32,068 bases of DNA. Source: Desulfosarcina sp. (GTDB lineage: Bacteria > Desulfobacterota > Desulfobacteria > Desulfobacterales > Desulfosarcinaceae). The translations under genes and the position numbers were made by a program. The DNA is taken from positions 1 to 32,068 of the forward strand of contig JABZFO010000091.1 in the NCBI GenBank assembly GCA_014237405.1, written 5' to 3'. Positions 17,564 through 31,965 of this stretch are shown piece after piece (position 1 is the first letter of the stretch; every line of letters begins with the position of its first letter). The notes under the pieces were generated by a model that saw nothing but the letters and a program-made list of their open reading frames with translations, had not been told where the DNA came from and ran no database searches.

Positions 17564-18139
17564 GTGGCAACTCTTAAAGGAACAAAAACGGAGAAGAATA
17601 TCTTGACGGCATTTGCCGGTGAATCCCAAGCTAGAAACCGTTACACCTACTTTTCCAAGCAGGCAAAAAAAGAAGGTTTTGTCCAGATTGCAGACATTTT
17701 TGAAGAGACCGCCAACCAGGAGAAAGAGCATGCCAAACGGCTGTTCAAACTGCTGGAGGGGGGCGAAGTGGAGATCACCGGTGCATTTCCGGCCGGCGTG
17801 ATCGGCACCACCGTCGAGAACCTCAAAGGAGCAGCCGGCGGCGAGAATTATGAGTGGACCACCATGTATCCCGACTTTGCCAAGGTCGCCCGGGAAGAGG
17901 GTCTGGATCACGTGGCATTCATCTTCGAGGCCATTGCCGTGGCTGAAAAACAGCACGAAAAGCGCTATGTAGACCTGGCCGCCAACATCGAAGCCGGACG
18001 GGTGTTCAAGAGAGACCAGAGCGTCACCTGGCGCTGCCGCAACTGCGGTTATCTTCATGAAGGTACCGAACCCCCCGAAATGTGTCCGGCCTGTGCTCAT
18101 CCCCAGGCGCATTTTGAGATTCTGGGAGAGAACTGGTAA
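17564..18139 (+). CDS. rbr: Rubrerythrin
   Basis: The 191-residue rubrerythrin has an N-terminal ferritin-like diiron domain and a C-terminal rubredoxin domain. The diiron ligands are carried by [32 protein letters not shown] and [14 protein letters not shown]. The Fe(SCys)4 site comes from CRNCGY and CPACAH. It reduces hydrogen peroxide to water in the cytoplasm, taking electrons through rubredoxin. The start is a GTG at 17564 placed 6 nt after AGGAGG, a strong site. Length is normal for the family. Desulfoferrodoxin follows 51 nt downstream and provides the peroxide that this enzyme would clear. Confidence 0.96.
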
Positions 18140-18190: not shown

Positions 18191-18565
18191 ATGGCGGAAA
18201 GATATGAGGTTTACAAGTGCGATGTTTGTGGAAATATCGTCCAGGTGCTCGTCGGCGGCGGCGGTGAACTGGTTTGCTGTGGGCAACCCATGAATAAGCT
18301 GACGGAAAACACCGTTGATGCGGCAAAGGAAAAACACGTGCCGGTCATCGAAAAGATCGACGGCGGATACAAGGTCAAAGTGGGCGACGTCCCCCACCCC
18401 ATGGAGGAGAAGCACTGGATTCAGTGGGTCGAGCTGATTGCAGACGGCAAATCCTACTTCCAATTTCTCGATCCGGGCCAGACGCCCGAAGCCGAATTCA
18501 AGGTTGATGCGGCGTCGGTTTCGGCCAGAGAATACTGCAACCTTCACGGGTTGTGGAAAGCGTAA
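18191..18565 (+). CDS. dfx: Desulfoferrodoxin (two-iron superoxide reductase)
   Basis: The 124-residue protein has both iron sites. Centre I, a desulforedoxin-like Fe(SCys)4, uses Cys10, Cys13, Cys29 and Cys30. Centre II, the superoxide reductase site, uses His49, His69, His75, Cys116 and His119. The conserved EKH loop (Glu47-Lys48) that guides superoxide is present. It reduces superoxide to peroxide without making oxygen, which suits an anaerobe. AAGGAG is 6 nt upstream of the ATG. It sits between rubrerythrin and a small rubredoxin-like protein, as often seen in sulfate reducers. Confidence 0.96.
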
Positions 18566-20003: not shown

Positions 20004-21320
20004 ATGGACGTTGTCATGTTATCCCGGCTCCAGTTTGCCGCAGCCACCATGTTCCATTTCCTCTTCGTCCCCCTGACCCTGGGGTTGTCTGTTCTGGTGG
20101 CATACATGGAGACCCAATATGTGCGAACCGGGGATGAAACCTACCTGCGCATGACCAAGTTCTGGGGCAAACTCTTTCTGATCAACTTCGCCTTGGGCGT
20201 GGTCACCGGCATCACCCTGGAGTTCCAGTTCGGCACGAACTGGTCCCGGTACTCCGCCTATGTGGGAGACATTTTCGGATCCCTGCTGGCCATCGAGGCG
20301 TCAGTGGCCTTCTTTTTGGAATCCACCTTTATCGGCATCTGGATCTTCGGCTGGAACAAGCTGTCCAAAAAGGCCCACGCCACGGTCATGTGGCTGGTGG
20401 CCGGTGCCGGCAACGTCTCGGCCATCTGGATCCTGCTGGCCAACGGCTGGATGCAGCACCCGGTGGGCTTCACCATCCGCGACGGCCGGGCGGAACTGAC
20501 CGATTTTCTGGCCGTGGTCACCAACAAATTCGGGCTGTTGGAAATTGCTCACATGATCCCCTCCGCCTTCACGCTGGCCGCCTTCTTCATGATGGGCATC
20601 AGCGCCTGGCACCTGCTGAAAAAACAGCATGTCGACTTTTTCACCCGATCCTTCAATATCGGCCTGGTGGTGGGACTGGTGTCATCACTTATTGTCGTCA
20701 TCACCGGTGATATGCACGCCGTTCACGTCACCCAGACCCAACCGGCCAAACTGGCCGCCATGGAATCCCACTGGGAAACCCAGCCCCAGGCCCCCATCGT
20801 CATGTTTGCCGTGCCCGACGAGAAAAATGAGCGCAACAAGATCGAAATCGGTCGACTGCCCGGCGCCTTGAGCTTTCTGGGGCATCACGATGTCAACGCA
20901 GTGGTGACCGGGTTAAAGGATATTCCCAAGGACGAACGGCCGCCGGTTCTGCCGACGTTTGTATCATTTAGAACCATGGTGGCCCTGGGAACCCTGTTCC
21001 CACTGCTCACCATCGTCGGATGGTTTCTGCGAAAACGACTGGTTGAATCCCGCTGGTACTTGTGGGTCATGCTCTTGGCCATCCCGCTGCCCTATCTGGC
21101 CATCGAGATGGGATGGGTACTGGCCGAAGTGGGCCGCCAGCCGTGGATCGTCTACGGTCTGCTAAAAACCGCCAATGCCGCCTCGCCGATAGCAGCTTCC
21201 CAGGTGATGACAACCCTGGTGGGATTCATATTGGTCTACGGACTGTTGGGAATCGCCGGCTTTTACCTGATCGCCAATTTGGCGAAAAAAGGCCCGGAAC
21301 CGGCTACGGAAGACGCATAA
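20004..21320 (+). CDS. cydA: Cytochrome bd quinol oxidase subunit I
   Basis: The 438-residue membrane protein carries the haems of cytochrome bd, which oxidises quinol and reduces oxygen to water. Likely haem ligands are His18 (FHFLFVP), His183 (EIAHMIPSAF) and Met325 (SFRTMVALG). The hallmark GWVLAEVGRQPW is present near Glu375. At 438 residues it is shorter than E. coli CydA (522), as expected of enzymes with a short quinol loop. AAGGAGG lies upstream of the ATG. cydB follows 51 nt downstream. In an anaerobe it should serve oxygen removal and perhaps limited energy conservation. Confidence 0.97.
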   Translation: MDVVMLSRLQFAAATMFHFLFVPLTLGLSVLVAYMETQYVRTGDETYLRMTKFWGKLFLINFALGVVTGITLEFQFGTNWSRYSAYVGDIFGSLLAIEASVAFFLESTFIGIWIFGWNKLSKKAHATVMWLVAGAGNVSAIWILLANGWMQHPVGFTIRDGRAELTDFLAVVTNKFGLLEIAHMIPSAFTLAAFFMMGISAWHLLKKQHVDFFTRSFNIGLVVGLVSSLIVVITGDMHAVHVTQTQPAKLAAMESHWETQPQAPIVMFAVPDEKNERNKIEIGRLPGALSFLGHHDVNAVVTGLKDIPKDERPPVLPTFVSFRTMVALGTLFPLLTIVGWFLRKRLVESRWYLWVMLLAIPLPYLAIEMGWVLAEVGRQPWIVYGLLKTANAASPIAASQVMTTLVGFILVYGLLGIAGFYLIANLAKKGPEPATEDA

Positions 21321-21371: not shown

Positions 21372-22400
21372 ATGGTATTACAAACCGTATGGTTTTTTCT
21401 CTGGGGCCTGCTGTGGGCAATTTTTTTCATGACGGACGGCTTCGATTTTGGAATCGGCACTTTATATCCCTTCCTGGGTAAATCGGAACGGGACAAGAAC
21501 ATGATGATCCACGCCATGGGGCCGCTGTGGGACGGCAATGAAGTGTGGCTGATCACCGCCGGGGGCGTTACTTTTGCCGCCTTTCCGCTGTTCTACGCGG
21601 TCATGTTCTCATCCCTTTACTCGGCGCTGATGCTGATCCTGTTTGCCCTGATCCTGCGGGGTGTCTCCTTCGAGTTCCGCAACAAGGTGGAAAGCCCCGC
21701 ATGGAAAAAAGTGTGGGACACCTGTATCTTCGTCGGTAGTTTCCTGCCGGCACTGCTGTTCGGTGTGGCCTTTGCCAATATCTTCCAAGGCGTTCCCATC
21801 GATCAGGACGGCATTTTCCAGGGGAATCTGTTCACCCTTCTCAATCCTTACGGGCTGTTAGGCGGCGTCCTGTTTGTCTGCCTCTTTCTGCTTCACGGCG
21901 CCCTGTGGCTCACTATCCGTGCAGACGGGGATCTGGCCCAACGGGCCGAAAGCCTGTCCGGCAAGCTGTGGCCGGTGCTCACCGGCGTAGCAGTCGTCTT
22001 TCTGGTGGCCTCATATATCTTCACCCCGCTGTACAACAACTATCTGGCCAACCCGGTCCTGTTCCTGGTTCCGGCGATCGCCGTCGCCGCCATCGTGGGT
22101 ATCAAGTACTTCCTCATGCAAAAAGCCTTTTTCAAGGCGTGGCTCGCTTCGTCGGCCACCATCGTTTCCTGCATCTTCTTTGGCATTATCGGACTGTATC
22201 CAAACCTGTTCCCCTCCAGCATCGATGCCAAGTACAGCCTGACGGCCTTTAACGCCTCGTCCAGCCCCTTGACCCTGAAGATCATGCTCATCGTGGTGCT
22301 GCTTTCCATACCAGTGGTGCTGGCTTATCAGATCTGGGCCTACAAGCTGTTCAGCGGCAAGGTAACCGACGAAGAGCTGGCCCATGAAGAGACGTACTGA
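21372..22400 (+). CDS. cydB: Cytochrome bd quinol oxidase subunit II
   Basis: The 342-residue integral membrane protein pairs with CydA. Family motifs DGFDFGIGTLYPFL near residue 22 and GPLWDGNEVWL near residue 50 are present, and about eight or nine hydrophobic segments follow. The length is typical of the shorter CydB group. Translation starts at ATG after GGGGG. No small cydX-like gene is visible in the 108-nt gap that follows, and no cydDC exporter genes appear in the window. Confidence 0.96.
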   Translation: MVLQTVWFFLWGLLWAIFFMTDGFDFGIGTLYPFLGKSERDKNMMIHAMGPLWDGNEVWLITAGGVTFAAFPLFYAVMFSSLYSALMLILFALILRGVSFEFRNKVESPAWKKVWDTCIFVGSFLPALLFGVAFANIFQGVPIDQDGIFQGNLFTLLNPYGLLGGVLFVCLFLLHGALWLTIRADGDLAQRAESLSGKLWPVLTGVAVVFLVASYIFTPLYNNYLANPVLFLVPAIAVAAIVGIKYFLMQKAFFKAWLASSATIVSCIFFGIIGLYPNLFPSSIDAKYSLTAFNASSSPLTLKIMLIVVLLSIPVVLAYQIWAYKLFSGKVTDEELAHEETY

Positions 22401-22508: not shown

Positions 22509-22856
22509 ATGAGCCGCAATTTTGTTGTGGTCGCCATTGTCACCGCCTTGATCTTCATCCTCCCCATGGCCGCGGCCAGTGCCGCGAACCGGGGACCTGA
22601 CCAGATCGATATCTTCGGTGGCGAGCGGGGAAAGATACCCTTCCCTCACGCCAAACACCAGGACAACCTGAAAGATTGCAATATCTGCCACAGCGTCTTC
22701 CCCCAGGAAGCCGATGCCATAAAAACGCTCAAGGCGCAGGGTACGCTGAAAAAGAAAAAAGTGATGAACCTGCAGTGTATCAAGTGTCACAAGCAGGAGA
22801 AGAAGGCTGGCAAGCCCCATGGCCCCGTCACCTGCTCCACATGTCACGTCAAATAG
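22509..22856 (+). CDS. Triheme cytochrome c (c7/c3-like), exported
   Basis: The 115-residue protein has a signal peptide ending near AAASAANRG and three CxxCH motifs: CNICH, CIKCH and CSTCH. FPHAKHQDNLKDCNICH is the common c3/c7 start pattern, in which the upstream histidines act as distal ligands. Three haems and a small size fit the c7 type. It probably shuttles electrons in the periplasm, and its place after cydAB suggests a link to a membrane quinol or oxygen-reducing complex. GGAG lies 7 nt before the ATG. The next gene starts 21 nt after the stop. Confidence 0.88.
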   Translation: MSRNFVVVAIVTALIFILPMAAASAANRGPDQIDIFGGERGKIPFPHAKHQDNLKDCNICHSVFPQEADAIKTLKAQGTLKKKKVMNLQCIKCHKQEKKAGKPHGPVTCSTCHVK

Positions 22857-22877: not shown

Positions 22878-23852
22878 ATGTTAATCTTGGGACTTCAAGG
22901 CAGCCCGCGCAAAGGCGGCAACACCGACAGCCTGCTGGCTGCCTTTCTGGAAAAGGCCGGCCAGGCAGGTGCTGCCGTCAAAACCATCCAGGTGGCCAGG
23001 GCCGGGATCGTTCCCTGCAAAGGCTGCGGATACTGCGAAAGTCACGGAACCTGCGTCATTGCCGACGATCCCATGTCAACCGAAGTTTACGGTCTGATGA
23101 GGGAGGCGGACATGGTCGTGGCCGCATCCCCGGTTTTTTTCTACGGCATCTCTGCCCAACTCAAAGGCCTGATTGATCGCAGCCAGACCCTGTGGTCGCG
23201 AAAATATGTGTATAAACTCAAAGACCCCCTGGCGGCCACCCGTAAGGGCTTGCTGCTCAGCGTGGGGGCTTCCCGGGGCCGGCAGCTCTTCGACGGCGTT
23301 CACCTCACCGCCAAATACTTTTTCGACGGCATCGACGCCGCATTCAGCCACGCGCTGACCTACCGGGGCGTTGAATCAAAGGGCGCCATCCGCCATCAGG
23401 AGGGGGTGGCCGCAGACATTGACGAGGCCATCGAAAAAACCGTCGTGCCCCTGGTCAGCCGTAAAAAAGTCCTTTTCATCTCACCGAAAGGCGCCTGCCG
23501 GGCGCCCATGGCGGCGGCAATGGCCCAACAGCAGTACGGCGAATGCGTCCGCACCGGTTTTGGTGGATGGTCTCCGGCGTCCGCCCTGCATGATCCAATG
23601 GTGCGGGCCATGGAACGGATCGGCGTGGACATGGCCTATCGCAAACCGGAGAACATTGAACAGGCTTTATATGGCGCCAGGCCCGATCTAACGATCGCCA
23701 TTGGCGAAGGTGTTGATGAAATACCGGTTCCCGGCGTAAAAACGGTGCAATGGCCCCTGCCCGACCCGGTTTCATCAGATGATGAAACAATGGACCGGCT
23801 GCGCCTGGAGATTGAAGCGCACGTCGGTACGCTGATGCAATTGTTCGAATGA
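22878..23852 (+). CDS. Iron-sulfur flavoprotein fused to an inactive LMW-phosphatase/ArsC-like domain
   Basis: Residues about 1-190 form an NAD(P)H:FMN-reductase-type flavodoxin fold with the FMN loop GSPRKGGNTD and a compact Cys47-x2-Cys50-x2-Cys53-x5-Cys59 motif, the pattern that binds a 4Fe-4S cluster in iron-sulfur flavoproteins. Residues about 196-324 resemble a low-molecular-weight tyrosine phosphatase or arsenate reductase: VLFI-S-PKGACR, then LPDPVSSDDE. The family nucleophile, the first Cys of CX5R, is Ser202 here, while Cys207 and Arg208 remain. Phosphatase or arsenate chemistry is therefore unlikely and the domain may only bind a ligand. The flavin/Fe-S part could feed electrons to the neighbouring rubredoxins. 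The protein is cytoplasmic. The start has only a weak ribosome-binding site. Confidence 0.85.
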   Translation: MLILGLQGSPRKGGNTDSLLAAFLEKAGQAGAAVKTIQVARAGIVPCKGCGYCESHGTCVIADDPMSTEVYGLMREADMVVAASPVFFYGISAQLKGLIDRSQTLWSRKYVYKLKDPLAATRKGLLLSVGASRGRQLFDGVHLTAKYFFDGIDAAFSHALTYRGVESKGAIRHQEGVAADIDEAIEKTVVPLVSRKKVLFISPKGACRAPMAAAMAQQQYGECVRTGFGGWSPASALHDPMVRAMERIGVDMAYRKPENIEQALYGARPDLTIAIGEGVDEIPVPGVKTVQWPLPDPVSSDDETMDRLRLEIEAHVGTLMQLFE

Positions 23853-24677: not shown

Positions 24678-25865
24678 ATGAAACCAACAAAAATTGCAGA
24701 TGGCGTCTATGATGTCGGCGTCATCGACTGGAATATCAGGGATTTTCACGGCTACTCCACCGACCAAGGAACCAGCTATAACGCTTATTTGGTGATCGAC
24801 GAGAAAGTGGCCCTCCTCGACACGGTAAAGGCGCCTTTTGCCGATGAACTGATCGGCAATATCTCCCAGATCATCGACCCGAAAAAAATTGATGTGGTGA
24901 TCAGCAACCACACGGAGATGGATCATACGGGATCACTGCCGCGCATCATGAACCTGGTGGGTGAAGACAAACCACTATACTGTTCGAAAATGGGTGCTAA
25001 AAATATAGCCGGCCATTTTTCCAACGCCTGGAACTATCACCCTGTAAAAGATGGTGAGACATTGTCTTTGGGAAAGCGCACCCTCACCTTTATGGAAACC
25101 CGAATGATCCATTGGCCGGACAGTATGTTCACCTATCTGAAAGAGGACCACATCCTCTTTTCCAGCGACGGGTTCGGCCAGCACTATGCGGGTTTTGAAA
25201 AATTCGACGATCAGGCCGGTCCCGAGGCCATGGTGCAAGCCAAAAAGTATTTCGCCAATATTTTGATGCTCTACGGCCCGCGCATCCTGAAACTGGTGGA
25301 AAAAGTGGTGGCGTCGGGTATTCGGATCGACATGATCTGCCCGGACCATGGCGTCATTTGGCGGGAAAAGCCCGGTGAAATCATAGACGCCTACCTGAGG
25401 TGGAGCCGTCAGGAACCCGAGAAAAAGGCGGTGGTGATTTACGACACCATGTGGAAAAGCACCGAAACCATGGCCAACGCCATTGCCGAGGGCATCTCTC
25501 AAACCGGCGTCAAGGTCAAGCCCATCCACATCCGCAGTTCCCACCGCAGCGACATCATGACCGATGTGCTGGATGCGGCGGCCGTGGTGGTGGGATCCCC
25601 CACGCTGAACAACCAGATGTTTCCCACGGTGGCAGATGTACTCACTTACATGAAGGGGCTTAAACCGGCGAACAAGATCGGTGGGGCCTTTGGCTCCTAC
25701 GGCTGGAGCGGCGAGTCGGTGAAGCTGGTGGCCGCGGAGCTGGAGGCCATGAAATTCAAGCTGATCGAATCGGGTCCCCGGCTTCAGTACGTCCCCGATA
25801 AGGCCGGCATCGAGGCCTGCATCGAGTACGGAAAAAAAATCGGCGAGGCCGTAAACGCCGGTTAA
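24678..25865 (+). CDS. roo: Flavodiiron protein (rubredoxin:oxygen oxidoreductase, FprA/ROO type)
   Basis: The 395-residue protein joins a metallo-beta-lactamase-like diiron domain to a C-terminal flavodoxin domain. Diiron ligands are His78, Glu80, Asp82 and His83 (HTEMDH), His145, Asp164 and His224. The flavodoxin part has YDTMWKSTETMA, VGSPTLN and GGAFGSYGWSGE. The enzyme reduces oxygen to water, or nitric oxide to nitrous oxide in some members, with electrons from rubredoxin. There is no extra rubredoxin domain. I chose the ATG at 24678 (MKPTKIADGVYDVGVIDW) because the family starts there; AAAGGA lies upstream. A ferredoxin gene starts about 12 nt after the stop. Confidence 0.96.
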   Translation: MKPTKIADGVYDVGVIDWNIRDFHGYSTDQGTSYNAYLVIDEKVALLDTVKAPFADELIGNISQIIDPKKIDVVISNHTEMDHTGSLPRIMNLVGEDKPLYCSKMGAKNIAGHFSNAWNYHPVKDGETLSLGKRTLTFMETRMIHWPDSMFTYLKEDHILFSSDGFGQHYAGFEKFDDQAGPEAMVQAKKYFANILMLYGPRILKLVEKVVASGIRIDMICPDHGVIWREKPGEIIDAYLRWSRQEPEKKAVVIYDTMWKSTETMANAIAEGISQTGVKVKPIHIRSSHRSDIMTDVLDAAAVVVGSPTLNNQMFPTVADVLTYMKGLKPANKIGGAFGSYGWSGESVKLVAAELEAMKFKLIESGPRLQYVPDKAGIEACIEYGKKIGEAVNAG

Positions 25866-26078: not shown

Positions 26079-26693
26079 ATGGGCAACCGAGAACTCAAAG
26101 CCCGCATCAGGCAGCTGCTTGAACAGGATGATTTCCAAAACGCCCTGGAAACCATCCTGCGGATACCCGGCCGCCAGGCGGTGAACCCCCTGTTCTCTTT
26201 TTTTTATTCGGGAGAAGAGCAGTTCCGCTGGCGGGCCGTCACAGCCATGGGGGCGGTGGTTTGCCATATGGCCGACACCTCCATGGAATCGGCGCGGGTG
26301 GTGATGCGCCGGATCATGTGGAACCTTAACGACGAGTCCGGTGGTATCGGCTGGGGATCGCCCGAAGCCATGGGTGAAATTACCGCCGGCCACGCCGGTC
26401 TTGCGGACGAGTTTGCCTGCATCGTGGTCTCCTACATCAACCCGGACGGCAATTTTCTCGAACATGAAATGCTCCAGCGGGGATCATTGTGGGCGGTTGG
26501 CCGGCTGCCGGATCCTTTTCTCAGGGGCACGGCCGCATGGGCAGCCGGACCCATTGTGAACGACGCCCTGGCCCCGCTTTTAAAGGCCTTGCAGCCAGAT
26601 GACGCCCCCCTTCGGCTCTATCGGCAACGGCAGATCACGGAAACCACCGTCGGCAGCCTGGCCAAGGCTGCCCTGGCCGCCGGCACCCGCTGA
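26079..26693 (+). CDS. DVU0298-like HEAT-repeat-type protein
   Basis: The 204-residue protein is helical and resembles the DVU0298 family of sulfate reducers, whose function is unknown. FRWRAVTAMGAVVCHMAD and WGSPEAMGEITAGHAG look like HEAT-type helical repeats, and NFLEHEMLQRGSLWAVGRLP is a typical conserved segment. HEAT folds often bind partner proteins. It has no signal peptide or metal motif. It starts 9 nt after the ferredoxin stop and so belongs to the flavodiiron-ferredoxin transcript. Assignment to DVU0298 is from memory of the family pattern. Confidence 0.72.
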   Translation: MGNRELKARIRQLLEQDDFQNALETILRIPGRQAVNPLFSFFYSGEEQFRWRAVTAMGAVVCHMADTSMESARVVMRRIMWNLNDESGGIGWGSPEAMGEITAGHAGLADEFACIVVSYINPDGNFLEHEMLQRGSLWAVGRLPDPFLRGTAAWAAGPIVNDALAPLLKALQPDDAPLRLYRQRQITETTVGSLAKAALAAGTR

Positions 26694-26786: not shown

Positions 26787-27770
26787 TTGGAATTTGCATT
26801 TCTCGTTCCCGCACCTGACCCGATCCCCATCCCGTGGATGTGGCTCCAGGGACTGCTGCTGGCCACCTTCGTACTCCACCTGCTTTTCATGAACGCCATG
26901 CTGGGCACCGGCATCATCGCCCTGGTGGCCATGTTTCGCCGCAGGGCAAGCGATCTGCCGGTGGCAAAAGCCATCAGCACCACGCTGCCCACCCTTATCG
27001 CCTTTACGGTGAATACGGGTGTGGCCCCCCTGCTGTTCATTCACGTGTTGTACGGCCAGTTCATCTTTACCAGCAGCATCCTCATGGCGATCTGGTGGCT
27101 GTCGGCGGTGGGCATTCTTCTCATTGCCTATTACGCGGCCTACCTCTCCAACAACATGACTCTCATGCTCTCCCCGGGCCGGTGGAGCCGCTACCTGGAC
27201 ATCCCGGGCGGCAGTCTGCTCAACCTGGCCGAACCCATGCTGATTCCCCGCTACCTGCATTTCGTAACCGCATCGGTGGCCGTGGGCGGCCTGGTGATGG
27301 CCTGGATATGGCAATTGAAGGGACGAAAAGGATTCGCCGACGCCGAAGAGAAATCCCGGCAGGCCATGGGCTGGTTTACCGGGGCCACGGCCGTCCAGTT
27401 TGCAGTAGGCACCATTTTTCTATTTACCTTGCCCCGAGGAATCCGATCCTTATTTCTGGGCGGTGAGGCTACGGCAACATTCCTTTTCGCCGCATCGATA
27501 ACCGGAGCCATCGTCGCCCTTTATTTGGGTGTTCGACGCAAGATCCGATCCTGCACTGCAGCCACCGTGACCACCATTATCCTTATGGCCCTGGTACGGG
27601 ACCGGGTCAGGCAGGCCTTTCTCGCCCCGATCTTCTCGCCGGCAGAGCTGCCGGTTGCCCTGCAGACCGGTCCCTTTGTGCTCTTTCTGGTATCTCTGAC
27701 CCTGTGTATCGCCGCCGTGATGCTCATGATCCGCCTGGCCTTCGGCCGCAGGCAGGAGATACGGCCATGA
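26787..27770 (+). CDS. CydA-like membrane protein, small subunit of a haem c-linked complex
   Basis: The 327-residue protein has about eight or nine membrane segments. The first reads VLHLLFMNAMLGTG, and the histidine (His31) lies nine residues before Gly, exactly as in CydA (HFLFVPLTLG). A second histidine, His158 in PRYLHFVTASVAVGG, matches the haem b558 ligand region of CydA. No haem c motif is present. AAGGAGG (26772-26778) sits 8 nt before a TTG, which I take as the start. Its stop overlaps the next start (ATGA), so the two subunits are coupled. It probably forms, with the next protein, a bd-superfamily complex that may oxidise quinol; whether it reduces oxygen is not shown. Confidence 0.75.
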   Translation: MEFAFLVPAPDPIPIPWMWLQGLLLATFVLHLLFMNAMLGTGIIALVAMFRRRASDLPVAKAISTTLPTLIAFTVNTGVAPLLFIHVLYGQFIFTSSILMAIWWLSAVGILLIAYYAAYLSNNMTLMLSPGRWSRYLDIPGGSLLNLAEPMLIPRYLHFVTASVAVGGLVMAWIWQLKGRKGFADAEEKSRQAMGWFTGATAVQFAVGTIFLFTLPRGIRSLFLGGEATATFLFAASITGAIVALYLGVRRKIRSCTAATVTTIILMALVRDRVRQAFLAPIFSPAELPVALQTGPFVLFLVSLTLCIAAVMLMIRLAFGRRQEIRP

Positions 27771-30310
27771 ACTATCCGATCTGGGAACGCACCCTGGCCG
27801 GCGGTGGTCTGCTCATCGCCGTGATTGCCGTGGTTCACGTCTATGTAGCCCATTTTGCCGTGGGCGGCGGTTTTTTTCTCGTGGTCACCGAATGGATGGG
27901 GTACCGGAATAAGCGCCCGGACATTGTAGCCTACGTCAAAACCCACAGCCTCTTTTTCCTGCTGGTCACCATGGTGTTCGGCGCCATCACCGGCGTGGGC
28001 ATCTGGTTCACCATTTCCCTGCTCAGCCCTGGCGTCACCTCAATCCTAATTCACACCTTCGTCTTTGGCTGGGCCACGGAGTGGGTCTTTTTTGCCGGAG
28101 AGATTGTGGCCCTGTTGCTCTACTGGTACCGCTTCGGAAAAATAAGCGAGAAAAACCATCTGGCCATCGGCTTGTTTTACGTACTTTTCGGCTGGCTCTC
28201 ACTGTTCATGGTCAACGGTATCATCGCCTTCATGCTCACGCCGGGCCGATGGCTGGAAACGGGCAACTTCTGGGACGGGTTCTTCAATCCTTCCATGTGG
28301 CCGTCGTTGGGCTACCGCACCTGTATCGCCCTGATGTTTGCCGGCATATTCGGCTTTGTCACCGCTGTATTCATAAAGGATGACCGGCAGCGCAAGACCC
28401 TGGTGAACTGGTGCGTGTGGTGGACCGTCATCCCCTTCATCCTCTCCTGCCCTTTTCTCTTCTGGTATTTCAAGGCGCTCTCTCCGGACCAGCAGGAGAT
28501 GATTCTGCGTCTGTCTCCAGAATTGTCCGACGCTGTGACCTTCTTCGTGTTCACGATCCCGCTGCTGTTTATCGGTATCGTGGTCATGGTGGCCAGGTCT
28601 CGTGGCGGCGTTCAAAAAACCGCGGCCTTCGTGGTGCTGCTGGCGGGCCTGGGCTACATGGGCGGGTTCGAATGGCTGCGCGAAGGGACCCGGCGGCCTT
28701 ACTTGATCTATGGCCACACCTACTCCAACGGCATCGCCGTGGATCAGGAGACGGCCATCAACGAAGCAGGTATTTTAAAAACCGCCCGCTGGGTGAACCA
28801 CCGCGAGATTTCCGAGGAGAACATGCTGGCCGCCGGCCGGGAGATTTTCCGGCTCCTTTGCATCAGCTGCCACTCCGTGGGCGGACCGGCCAATGACATC
28901 CTGCCCCTGACCAACGGCTTTGGCGCCTTCGGCATGGATGCCCAGCTATCCGGCCAGGGGAAGCTGTCCGGCTACATGCCACGGTTCATGGGAACCGAAC
29001 AGGATCGGATGGCCCTGGCCCGGTTCATCGTCGAAGCCCTTCACGGCAAAAAAGATGCGCCACCTGCGGTTGAAATCGAGCCGCGACCCGTCGATGTCTC
29101 CCCGATCGACCCGGAAACAAACCGATATGTACTGCTGGTCGCCAGCACCCTGGGCATGCACGAATTTTCCGGTGCACCGGAAATATGGTCCCTGCGGCCG
29201 TCGCCCCGGGCCACTATCCGGGCCCAGTTAATCCGCCGCGACGAGACACCCGAACACGTCATGGACGGGGTGTCGCTGACCTATACGGTGTCGGACAACC
29301 AGGGAACGCCGGGAGAGATGATCTTCTCCGATGCGCACATGGCCTTTTCAGCCCAAATCAATACTCTGACACCAAAAGATGAAGACGGCCGCTTCAATCC
29401 CTACCCCTTGGTAACGGTGACCGCAACGGAGGACGACCGGATACTGGCCCGCACCCGCATCACCCTGCCGGTGACCACGGAGATGGGATGCAGCAGCTGC
29501 CACGGAGGCAATGCAGCGTCCACAGGCCCGGGAATGAACGAAGAGACGGCCCTCAACGTGCTCCGTGCCCACGACCGCAGGAGTAGAACCGCTCTGGTCC
29601 GGCAGGTGAGCAAAGGAATGCCGGTGACCTGCACGGCCTGCCACGAATCCGACGCTGCGGACGCACCGCATCGACTGAATCTTTCGTCAGCCATGCACGG
29701 ATTCCATGCCGTTTACCTCTCTGGAAAAGGGAGCGAAGCCTGCGGTGCCTGTCACGCTGTCGGCAACACCGGGGCCACCCGCTTTTACCGGGGTATTCAC
29801 CACGAAATCGGCCTGGAATGCAGCAACTGCCATGGTACCATGGCGGACGTGGCTGCCAGCCTGCTGATGGCCGACAGCGAAAGAGGCAAACCTTCTGCCG
29901 GCCGCATCATGAAATGGCTGACCGCGTCACCTAAAACCGATGCAAAGGAAATTGCCGGCCGCCGGCCCTGGGTGAACCTGCCCAAATGTCTCAATTGCCA
30001 TGTCGATTTCCAACCGCCGGACACCGATGAGGCGCCTCTGAACAACTGGAGCCAGTCGGAAGCGGCGCTGTTCCGTTCCAGGACCGACGACGCGGGTATC
30101 CTGTGCATCAACTGCCACGGCAGCCCCCACGCGCTCTACCCGGCCACAAATCCATACAACCTCGACCGTGACAACATCCCTGCATTTCAATTCCAGGGAT
30201 CGCCCTATCCCATCGGGTCCGACGGCGGGTGCCGGGTCTGCCACACCGCGGTCATGGAGGAGACCATTCACCATTTCGATGCGTCTGCCGCGTTTCGAAA
30301 TACGCGATAG
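27767..30310 (+). CDS. CydA-like protein fused to octaheme cytochrome c
   Basis: Residues about 1-320 are a CydA-like membrane domain with eight or nine segments. His24 lies nine residues before Gly as in CydA, and FEWLREGTRRPY (about 301-312) matches the GWxxxExGRQPW motif in altered form. The His183-equivalent of CydA is not evident here but is kept in the partner at 26787. Residues 350-440 are a monohaem class I cytochrome c with CISCH at 365 and GYMPRFMG as likely Met-ligand region. A beta-rich segment follows (about 455-565). The C terminus has seven more CxxCH motifs at 575, 622, 659, 685, 741, 780 and 822, giving eight in all. It fits the haem c-bearing branch of the bd superfamily described in comparative surveys. 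Oxygen, a cytochrome or another acceptor is possible. Confidence 0.82.
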   Translation: MNYPIWERTLAGGGLLIAVIAVVHVYVAHFAVGGGFFLVVTEWMGYRNKRPDIVAYVKTHSLFFLLVTMVFGAITGVGIWFTISLLSPGVTSILIHTFVFGWATEWVFFAGEIVALLLYWYRFGKISEKNHLAIGLFYVLFGWLSLFMVNGIIAFMLTPGRWLETGNFWDGFFNPSMWPSLGYRTCIALMFAGIFGFVTAVFIKDDRQRKTLVNWCVWWTVIPFILSCPFLFWYFKALSPDQQEMILRLSPELSDAVTFFVFTIPLLFIGIVVMVARSRGGVQKTAAFVVLLAGLGYMGGFEWLREGTRRPYLIYGHTYSNGIAVDQETAINEAGILKTARWVNHREISEENMLAAGREIFRLLCISCHSVGGPANDILPLTNGFGAFGMDAQLSGQGKLSGYMPRFMGTEQDRMALARFIVEALHGKKDAPPAVEIEPRPVDVSPIDPETNRYVLLVASTLGMHEFSGAPEIWSLRPSPRATIRAQLIRRDETPEHVMDGVSLTYTVSDNQGTPGEMIFSDAHMAFSAQINTLTPKDEDGRFNPYPLVTVTATEDDRILARTRITLPVTTEMGCSSCHGGNAASTGPGMNEETALNVLRAHDRRSRTALVRQVSKGMPVTCTACHESDAADAPHRLNLSSAMHGFHAVYLSGKGSEACGACHAVGNTGATRFYRGIHHEIGLECSNCHGTMADVAASLLMADSERGKPSAGRIMKWLTASPKTDAKEIAGRRPWVNLPKCLNCHVDFQPPDTDEAPLNNWSQSEAALFRSRTDDAGILCINCHGSPHALYPATNPYNLDRDNIPAFQFQGSPYPIGSDGGCRVCHTAVMEETIHHFDASAAFRNTR

Positions 30311-30560: not shown

Positions 30561-31965
30561 ATGCCAAGGACCCCGGTTTTACTGGTGATGGCCTGCGCCC
30601 TGCTGTGGGCCGCAACGTTTATCGGATGTGCATCGAAAGATGCCTATCGCTACGACACCATCAAGGCCCAGTATGCCGACCTGGCCTGCAACCTGAGTAA
30701 ATCACAGGCTGCCGATACGCCCAATGCCACCTGTGCCGTTAACAGCAGCCTGACATTGCAGGACGTGCTCGACATTGCCCAGGCCAACAACCCGGATCTA
30801 CTCATGGCTGTAGCCCGCATCGAACGGGCACGGGCTATGCTTGAAAAGTCAGCCGCCCCTTTCTACCCCCAAGTAAACGTCTACACCGAGTACCTGCAGG
30901 GCGACGCGCCGTCGGCCTATCTGTTCAAGACCATCGACCAGCGCAAACTGCCGCCGGGTACCGATTTCAACGACCCGGGCTGGTTCGAGAATTATGAAAG
31001 CGGTGTCAGCGCCGGCATCAACCTGTTCAACGGCGGCAGAGACAGCCTTAACCGGGAGATGGCCAAAACCGGCCTGACCATTTCTCAACTGGATCGTGAC
31101 GGCATCGAGAACCAGATTATAGCCACAGCCATCGGCGCCTACTACGATGTACTCGCCGCAACCAGCTTCACCACCGTTACTGTCCCTTCAGGTGCGCATG
31201 GCGGAAACCGAAGAAATTCTCGTCCAGATCCGTAATCGGCAACGTCTGGCCAAGGCAGCGCTGGCGGAAATCCTCGGTGTGGAGCCGGAAGTGCCCTTTG
31301 GTCTCGCCGAGGTAACCGCCCATGCCATCGATATCCCTGAAGACCCCTTTCCGGCAATGGATTACGCCCTGGCCCATCGGCCCGAACTGGCCAGTGTCCG
31401 GGAAAAACTGCGCCGATCAAAAATGGCCCTGGATGCGGCCCGGGCCGGCTATCTGCCCCAGGTGGATTTCATGACCCGTTACTACGCCGACGACCCCGAC
31501 ATGAAATACAGCTCCGCCAGGGACAACTGGACCGCCGGCCTTTACCTGAACTGGAAGATCTTCGACGGATTTGCCACCAAGAGCGACAGGGCCGAAGCCC
31601 TGTCCCAGCTGCAGGAAACCATGGCCGCCGACCGCAAAACCCTGCTGGCCGTCAAGTTTGACGTAAAAAAGGCCTACCTCAACCTCAACGAAGCGCAGGA
31701 ACGGCTGAAGGTGGCCACGTCCAATGTTCAAACAGCCAAGAAGACCCATCAACTGATCAAGCGCCAGTACGAGGGAGGATCGGCGGACATCACCCGCTAC
31801 CTGGAAGCCGAACTGGCCTACAACCGGGCCAGAATGCGTGAATCCACCGCTTATTTCGACCGTGAAAAAGCCCGCGCTCAGATTGCCCGGGCCATCGGAT
31901 ACTGGACCGGCAGCCGCCAAACCGAACCAAGGTCCGAACCAAGTTCCGGCACCAAGGAGGGATAG
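30561..31965 (+). pseudogene. TolC-family outer-membrane efflux protein, disrupted
   Basis: Two reading frames together form one TolC/OprM-like outer-membrane factor. The first (30561 to the stop at 31235) opens with a lipoprotein signal (FIGCAS) and contains the N-terminal repeat up to AYYDVLAA, near 31141-31161. The second frame (+1) resumes at about LLSLQVRMAETEE, near 31178, and continues to 31965 with the C-terminal repeat, including DGFATKSDRAEA and GSADITRYLEAE. In intact relatives about 30-35 residues of coiled coil lie between these points, so a deletion of about 100 bases that is not a multiple of three has broken the gene. The start has a strong GAGGAGGAGG site. A sequencing or assembly error is the main alternative. 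Confidence 0.8.

Follow-up and report, generated by a model that had tools for sequence, protein, structure and literature searches.

An octahaem gene pair of the cytochrome bd superfamily in Desulfosarcina sp., proposed to reduce O2 with electrons from periplasmic cytochrome c

A stretch of 32,068 nucleotides from Desulfosarcina sp. (contig JABZFO010000091.1 of assembly GCA_014237405.1, positions 1 to 32,068), called the window throughout, carries at positions 26787..30310 of the forward strand two adjacent genes for membrane proteins, the small and the large subunit of a pair whose large member bears eight CxxCH haem c motifs. We propose, with a probability of roughly 60%, that this pair is a haem-c-bearing O2 reductase of the cytochrome bd superfamily, fed by periplasmic cytochrome c and not by quinol. 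Because the quinol site is lost and eight predicted haems lie outside the membrane, O2 is probably reduced with electrons from periplasmic cytochromes. A first-pass annotation of the same DNA had also seen a haem-c-bearing pair of the bd type, an interpretation that stands, but had taken quinol as the electron source, which our results do not bear out.

Results

Make-up of the pair

The small gene (26787..27770, + strand, 327 aa) begins at a TTG with AAGGAGG directly 5' of it; relatives of its product, set against this start, begin with MDPxxLIPxPD or similar. The large gene (27767..30310, + strand, 847 aa) is an open reading frame whose ATG overlaps the stop of the small gene as ATGA, and both starts, together with the end at 30310, agree with the limits first assigned to the pair. 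The large subunit matches PF01654 (cytochrome bd subunit I) with 28.8 bits, above the cut-off of 26.2, and for the small subunit no match was found in Pfam, NCBIfam or PHROGs. In the large subunit a CydA-like membrane domain of eight long helices (residues 1-323; 27767..28735, + strand), holding H24, E105, E112, E306 and R309, is followed by a monohaem cytochrome c domain (residues 325-425; 28739..29041, + strand) with C365xxC368H369 and Met404, whose score against PF13442, 26.3 bits, is slightly below the cut-off of 27. A beta-sandwich domain (residues 454-566; 29126..29464, + strand) and a seven-haem cytochrome c domain with PF14522 and PF14537 (residues 575-836; 29489..30274, + strand) complete the protein. 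The CxxCH motifs begin at residues 365, 575, 622, 659, 685, 741, 780 and 822, and their number, one in the monohaem domain and seven beyond it as first reported, is far above what 2000 shuffles of the protein gave (mean 0.011, maximum 1).

Conservation was followed in alignments A1, A3 and A5, of 62, 62 and 64 rows, drawn from 92 distinct large subunits and 77 small-subunit references having the H31 motif discussed below. Candidate distal ligands of the seven-haem domain are His 602, 644, 647, 678, 788, 835 and 836; the first five are invariant in the 42 octahaem rows of A3, and His 835 and His 836 are kept in 41/42 and 40/42 of these rows, respectively. The large subunit thus ends in a His/Met haem c and a beta-sandwich, and then in seven haems that are probably bis-His. 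Position 695 is His in 39/42 octahaem rows and Val in the window, one of the three exceptions, and with this residue gone one haem may have an open site. Such a site could suit a tail or core that reduces NO, nitrite or peroxide instead of O2, an explanation that we regard as quite improbable even though NO and peroxide are also substrates of canonical bd enzymes and proteins of PF11783 and PF13447 stand beside other cores. The distal His candidates of the other haems are conserved, and His 695 may not be a ligand at all, as there would then be eight candidates for seven haems.

Kinship of the two subunits

Fold comparison recovers the CydA fold in both subunits, and in profile comparisons the N-terminal domain of the large one aligns with canonical CydA at E 3.6e-6 and with CydB at E 0.17, while the small one aligns with CydA at E 0.023 and with CydB at E 0.057. 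By fold, the small subunit scores 21.8 against CydA and 20.0 against chain 9r2g_D, which we take to be CydB. The two subunits align with each other in hhalign at E 2.1e-9 over 270 columns and are, judged by this likeness, paralogues. That both are CydA-like, as initially claimed, is therefore upheld by fold and profile comparison, although only the large one matches PF01654. The partner of the large subunit is a CydA-like paralogue and not CydB, which sets the pair apart from canonical CydAB (the qOR family).

Active-site residues kept and quinol loop lost

Among 35 large-subunit rows and 15 canonical rows, H24, E105, E112, E306 and R309 co-occur in every one (35/35 and 15/15). Nearly invariant in both sets are H24, G33, G72, G76, E105, F109 and E112, and further S145, an Ile column, M156, F168, E306, R309 and P311. 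Counted from the alignment, the five residues correspond to H21, E101, E108, E378 and R381 of the Geobacillus chain 5doq_A, and presumably to H19, E99, E107, E445 and R448 of the E. coli enzyme. In the larger alignment A3, H24 is found in all 61 of the 62 large rows that reach that position (one is cut), and E105, E112, R184, W233, E302, R305, E306, R309, P311, C365, C368, H369 and M404 are invariant. The acidic residues E105, E112 and E306 (62/62) were overlooked by the first-pass annotation and sit in the large subunit; its remark that each subunit has a His nine residues before a Gly is accurate (H24/G33 in the large one, H31/G40 in the small one). With its PF01654 match, its CydA fold and all active-site residues present, the large subunit can be assigned on these features to the cytochrome bd superfamily.

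What is missing is the apparatus for quinol. The motif QPxKxxAxE, which we used as the quinol-loop pattern, occurs in 0/35 large rows vs 14/15 canonical ones, a result that leaves the previously suggested quinol-to-cytochrome or quinol-to-oxygen route unsupported. The His of the fifth transmembrane helix (TM5) of subunit I, which we take to be the b558 ligand of the canonical enzyme, is likewise found in 0/35 large rows vs 15/15 canonical and 8/8 Nitrospirota rows, and 35/35 large rows carry Glu302 in place of the Trp of the GRQPW region.

A quinol:cytochrome c oxidoreductase, in which quinol would be oxidised in the membrane pair and electrons would leave through the tail to acceptors in the periplasm or outer membrane, has some points in its favour: the fold is partly common to quinol-binding proteins of the NrfD kind, the tail weakly resembles cytochromes of the MtrC/OmcA type, and octahaem cytochromes of PF11783 or PF13447 adjoin the core in three loci (L070, L071, L076). 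We nevertheless find this explanation unlikely, as the quinol-loop motif is lost, the O2-site residues are kept in every row compared, the neighbours in the island described below are related to O2, and electrons leaving through bis-His haems that lie beyond a His/Met haem would have to move uphill. In one locus (L093) the core comes after Rieske-like and cytochrome b genes, and in another (L066) a divergent bc cluster is near. In the order to which genome G182 belongs, 144/242 genomes gave a match; 20 regions from genomes of this order showed neither a cytochrome b nor a Rieske gene (two seeds each), and cytochrome b was matched in 24/43 genomes of the corresponding set, none of the listed matches being near the core.

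The small subunit

Row starts for the small subunit were set through the H31 motif, and two references that lack it (L038, L073) are truncated at the end of a contig. Within the 64 rows H31 (26877-26879), W104, Y115, Y119, R155 and R271 are invariant, whereas H158 (27258-27260; 63/64) and R275 vary once each. The b558 histidine had earlier been recognised in the small subunit only, as H158; a ligand role for H158 is suggested by its position. The view that a GRQPW-like motif belongs to the large subunit only needs amending, as R271 (64/64) and R275 (63/64) of the small subunit align with R305 and R309 of the large one.

These nearly invariant His and Arg residues, in a subunit with a CydA fold of its own, would allow a quinol oxidase in which the small subunit admits quinol (H31, H158, R155, R271), leaving the tail as a side branch. 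We give this little credence: no known quinol motif was recognised in the small subunit, and eight haems would be left without a clear role.

The copy in the window is peculiar in one respect. About 30 residues, a loop and most of a hydrophobic helix, are missing at a junction at 27146..27147 (+ strand), where relatives have at least 30 residues (median 32) and the window has 2, and this deletion is absent from the other 63 of the 64 small subunits compared. Residues 4-120 and 151-355 of a relative's small subunit match the window as separate segments that join at 27146/27147, and the reading frame stays open across the junction. The structure model is weakest at residues 111-120 (predicted local distance difference test score of 46), and no second match to the small subunit was found elsewhere in the window genome, given as 92% complete. 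The missing helix may reflect a genuine deletion or an assembly error; the window copy is shortened, but the argument from the family is independent of that copy.

Place in the bd superfamily

A tree was built from 63 rows picked for spread among large-type and CydA sequences, with small subunits left out. Canonical, OR-N-like and large-family rows form separate clades, each with 100/100 support, and the large-family rows stand beside eight Nitrospirota rows without haem c that we assume to be OR-N. The deep order of the canonical and large-family clades is insecure because of the long branches between them. A single clade of 17 rows (100/98) unites all 14 octahaem rows with three monohaem ones (L065, L066, L074). 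The expectation that both subunits would find a place among the bd families is thus borne out for the large one, which has its own haem-c-bearing clade, the small one being outside the tree. The large subunit has a haem c domain and no quinol site, and its clade is, as far as these sequence features tell, probably the OR-C family already in print, for which we take a haem c domain on subunit I to be the mark. In the accessible portions of two sources (PMC10839748, PMC13189123), the qOR, OR-C and OR-N families are named after a 2021 paper and non-quinol and haem-c-bearing families are already in print, as the first-pass annotation had stated of haem-c-bearing members. For the octahaem form no description was found in the open literature, whose coverage misses many papers, and to that extent this form is what is new here.

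Two other kinds of sequence were seen alongside. Two loci (L128:3471-4706, L129:3943-5196) hold lone CydA-like proteins of ~415 aa with one CxxCH, in a separate clade of the tree, with rubrerythrin genes near and no small gene in the stretch; in L129 flavodiiron and FMN reductase genes are close by as well. L179 and L180 hold short CydA-like proteins of Nitrospirota that carry no haem c motifs, two of them in tandem in L180, and their place in the tree is uncertain.

Spread and variants of the family

A contig scan that relied on six short peptides from the window protein confirmed at least 80 stretches (80/81 candidates) in Desulfobacterota, Thermodesulfovibrio, Gemmatimonadales, Bacteroidetes, Verrucomicrobia, Zixiibacteriota, Acidobacteria and others, and a search of relatives gave a match in 30/97 genomes, the window's own included, although some of these matches cover just the tail. 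Among the relatives found, the octahaem form is common: eight CxxCH are present in 54 of the 92 distinct large subunits, two in 18, one in 13, three in two and five in one, and the remaining four break off at a contig end after six or seven. The row with five motifs (L056) and one with two (L064) resemble broken frames and were counted unchanged. The 94 loci of the collection are not 94 independent places, because some are one contig under several ids (L139/L034/L008 and L142/L005).

The tail is a separate frame or gene in L016, L063, L068 and L073/L074; the first three are perhaps frameshifts, and the tail of L073/L074 has ten motifs and its own N-terminal hydrophobic stretch. Cytochromes related to the tail, with eight or nine CxxCH and without a membrane domain, occur in L130-L134. 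In L200, L202, L203 and L204 the small subunit has two CxxCH and a two-haem gene precedes the large subunit, and an Ignavibacteria locus (L075:10001-12599) has two large subunits in tandem ahead of one small, with a FixO-type gene near.

In a hidden Markov model search the small gene lies beside the large one in 82/94 loci. Among the 12 loci without it, five (L007, L017, L022, L053, L082) have too little flanking sequence and L077 is too short downstream, the side used in its clade. A small-gene match was present somewhere in all 11 genomes searched with A5, in two pieces in G021; nine of these genomes belong to loci or regions in which some large gene has no small gene next to it, and G019 and G075 were added. 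Since the small gene is found in genomes without an adjacent pair, the large and small genes can part. In two genomes (G053:C149:35542-36594 and G039:C1:1252196-1253275) the small gene is ~5 kb from CydA and the large octahaem gene elsewhere.

Gene neighbourhood

In the window and in several relatives the pair sits in an oxygen-defence island. Directly upstream is a recurrent neighbour of the DVU0298 family (26079..26693, + strand; NF045662, 212.9 bits), preceded by a flavodiiron-type protein, by its domains of the rubredoxin:oxygen oxidoreductase type (24678..25865, + strand; PF19583 and PF00258), and by an FMN-reductase-like domain fused to a low-molecular-weight phosphatase-like domain (22878-23852), which recurs in the island. 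A small class III/c7-type cytochrome c (22509..22856, + strand; PF02085, PF14522), a candidate donor, has homologues in the islands of relatives. Canonical CydA (20004-21320, + strand; PF01654, 598.5 bits) and CydB (21372-22400, + strand; PF02322, 357.2 bits), noted from the start as lying upstream of the pair, belong to the same island, as do a rubrerythrin (17564-18139) and a desulfoferrodoxin (18191-18565), both on the + strand and identified by Pfam. The window also encodes thioredoxin, redoxin/AhpC-TSA proteins, a second rubrerythrin-family protein and a flavodoxin.

Nearly the same run of genes is found in three loci (L137, L138, L139) and parts of it in four (L023, L026, L136, L142); L135 has the run without the small gene, and its large gene is cut by the contig end. 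The flanks of the 94 loci are very different, with at least one O2-related gene of the island in 11 and DVU0298 in 9. Through PF01654 the family was found in 15/60 genomes, and CydA lay within 10 kb in 6/15, where by our own estimate ~0.1 would be expected, figures to be read in the knowledge that the relatives are not independent; regions fetched later were chosen in part because CydA had shown nearby. G053 and G039 are among the 15, and only their small gene is near CydA.

Downstream of the pair, a TolC-like outer-membrane factor is apparently split over two frames (30561-31235 and 31147-31965), and a single 493-aa TolC-like homologue lies directly downstream of the pair in L137. We take the split in the window to be a frameshift or an assembly fault.

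Discussion

If the pair works as we propose, low-potential periplasmic cytochromes, among them the candidate class III cytochrome at 22509-22856, would feed the seven-haem tail, and electrons would pass from its bis-His haems, provided that all motifs are occupied, to the His/Met haem c (H369/M404) and on to two active-site haems bound in the large subunit close to H24, E306, E105, E112 and R309, where O2 would be reduced with protons from the cytoplasm. Bis-His haems are of low potential and a His/Met haem is of higher potential; with low-potential haems outside and the higher one next to the membrane, inward electron flow would be favoured. The small subunit would stand in for CydB and could bind an additional b haem at H31/H158. 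The likely use of such an enzyme would be the removal of O2 in an anaerobe, alongside CydAB and the flavodiiron protein.

In some strict anaerobes O2 is reduced with electrons from the periplasm, and the linking enzyme is often unclear. An enzyme of the bd type that draws on cytochrome c by way of a multihaem wire would close this gap between periplasm and O2, and a match to COX1, of the haem-copper oxidases, was absent in 10/13 genomes having this family. More tentatively, and with rather less confidence than we have in the reading of the pair itself, the octahaem branch, which would be widespread, could be a copper-free cytochrome c oxidase that connects the network of low-potential cytochromes in the periplasm of sulfate reducers and further anaerobes directly to O2, bypassing quinone, with monohaem kin that include the so far unassigned CydA homologue of cable bacteria. 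As far as the accessible text of the sources goes, cable bacteria have no complete bd oxidase but do have a CydA homologue (PMC10030654, PMC13047784), called CydAh and endowed with a cytochrome c domain (PMC13047784), and a CydA homologue is listed in a further strain (PMC12093952). None of the matches listed from the six-peptide scan, at least 80 loci, had a title naming a cable bacterium. If the idea is correct, the CydA homologue of cable bacteria would be a candidate O2 reductase at the cathodic end, and the pair described here would offer a testable model for a question that, in the accessible parts of both papers, is already posed (PMC10030654, PMC13047784).

Comparison with known systems

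In spite of what they have in common, namely the CydA fold and the aligned active-site residues, the pair and canonical cytochrome bd (CydAB; 5doq, 6rko, 7ose) differ in several respects: in the pair eight helices lead up to a haem c tail, the partner resembles CydA where the canonical enzyme has CydB, and both the quinol-loop motif and the TM5 His are lost. With the OR-N-like rows it shares membership of the bd superfamily, the lack of the canonical quinol loop and the arrangement as tandem paralogues; those rows, however, have no CxxCH (8 rows), carry a Tyr at the E105 column (8/8) and keep the TM5 His (8/8), and the two groups remain apart in their separate 100/100 clades. Features that it would share with OR-C (Murali, Gennis, Hemp 2021) are a bd-superfamily subunit lacking the quinol loop, the place beside the Nitrospirota rows in the tree, and haem c on subunit I.
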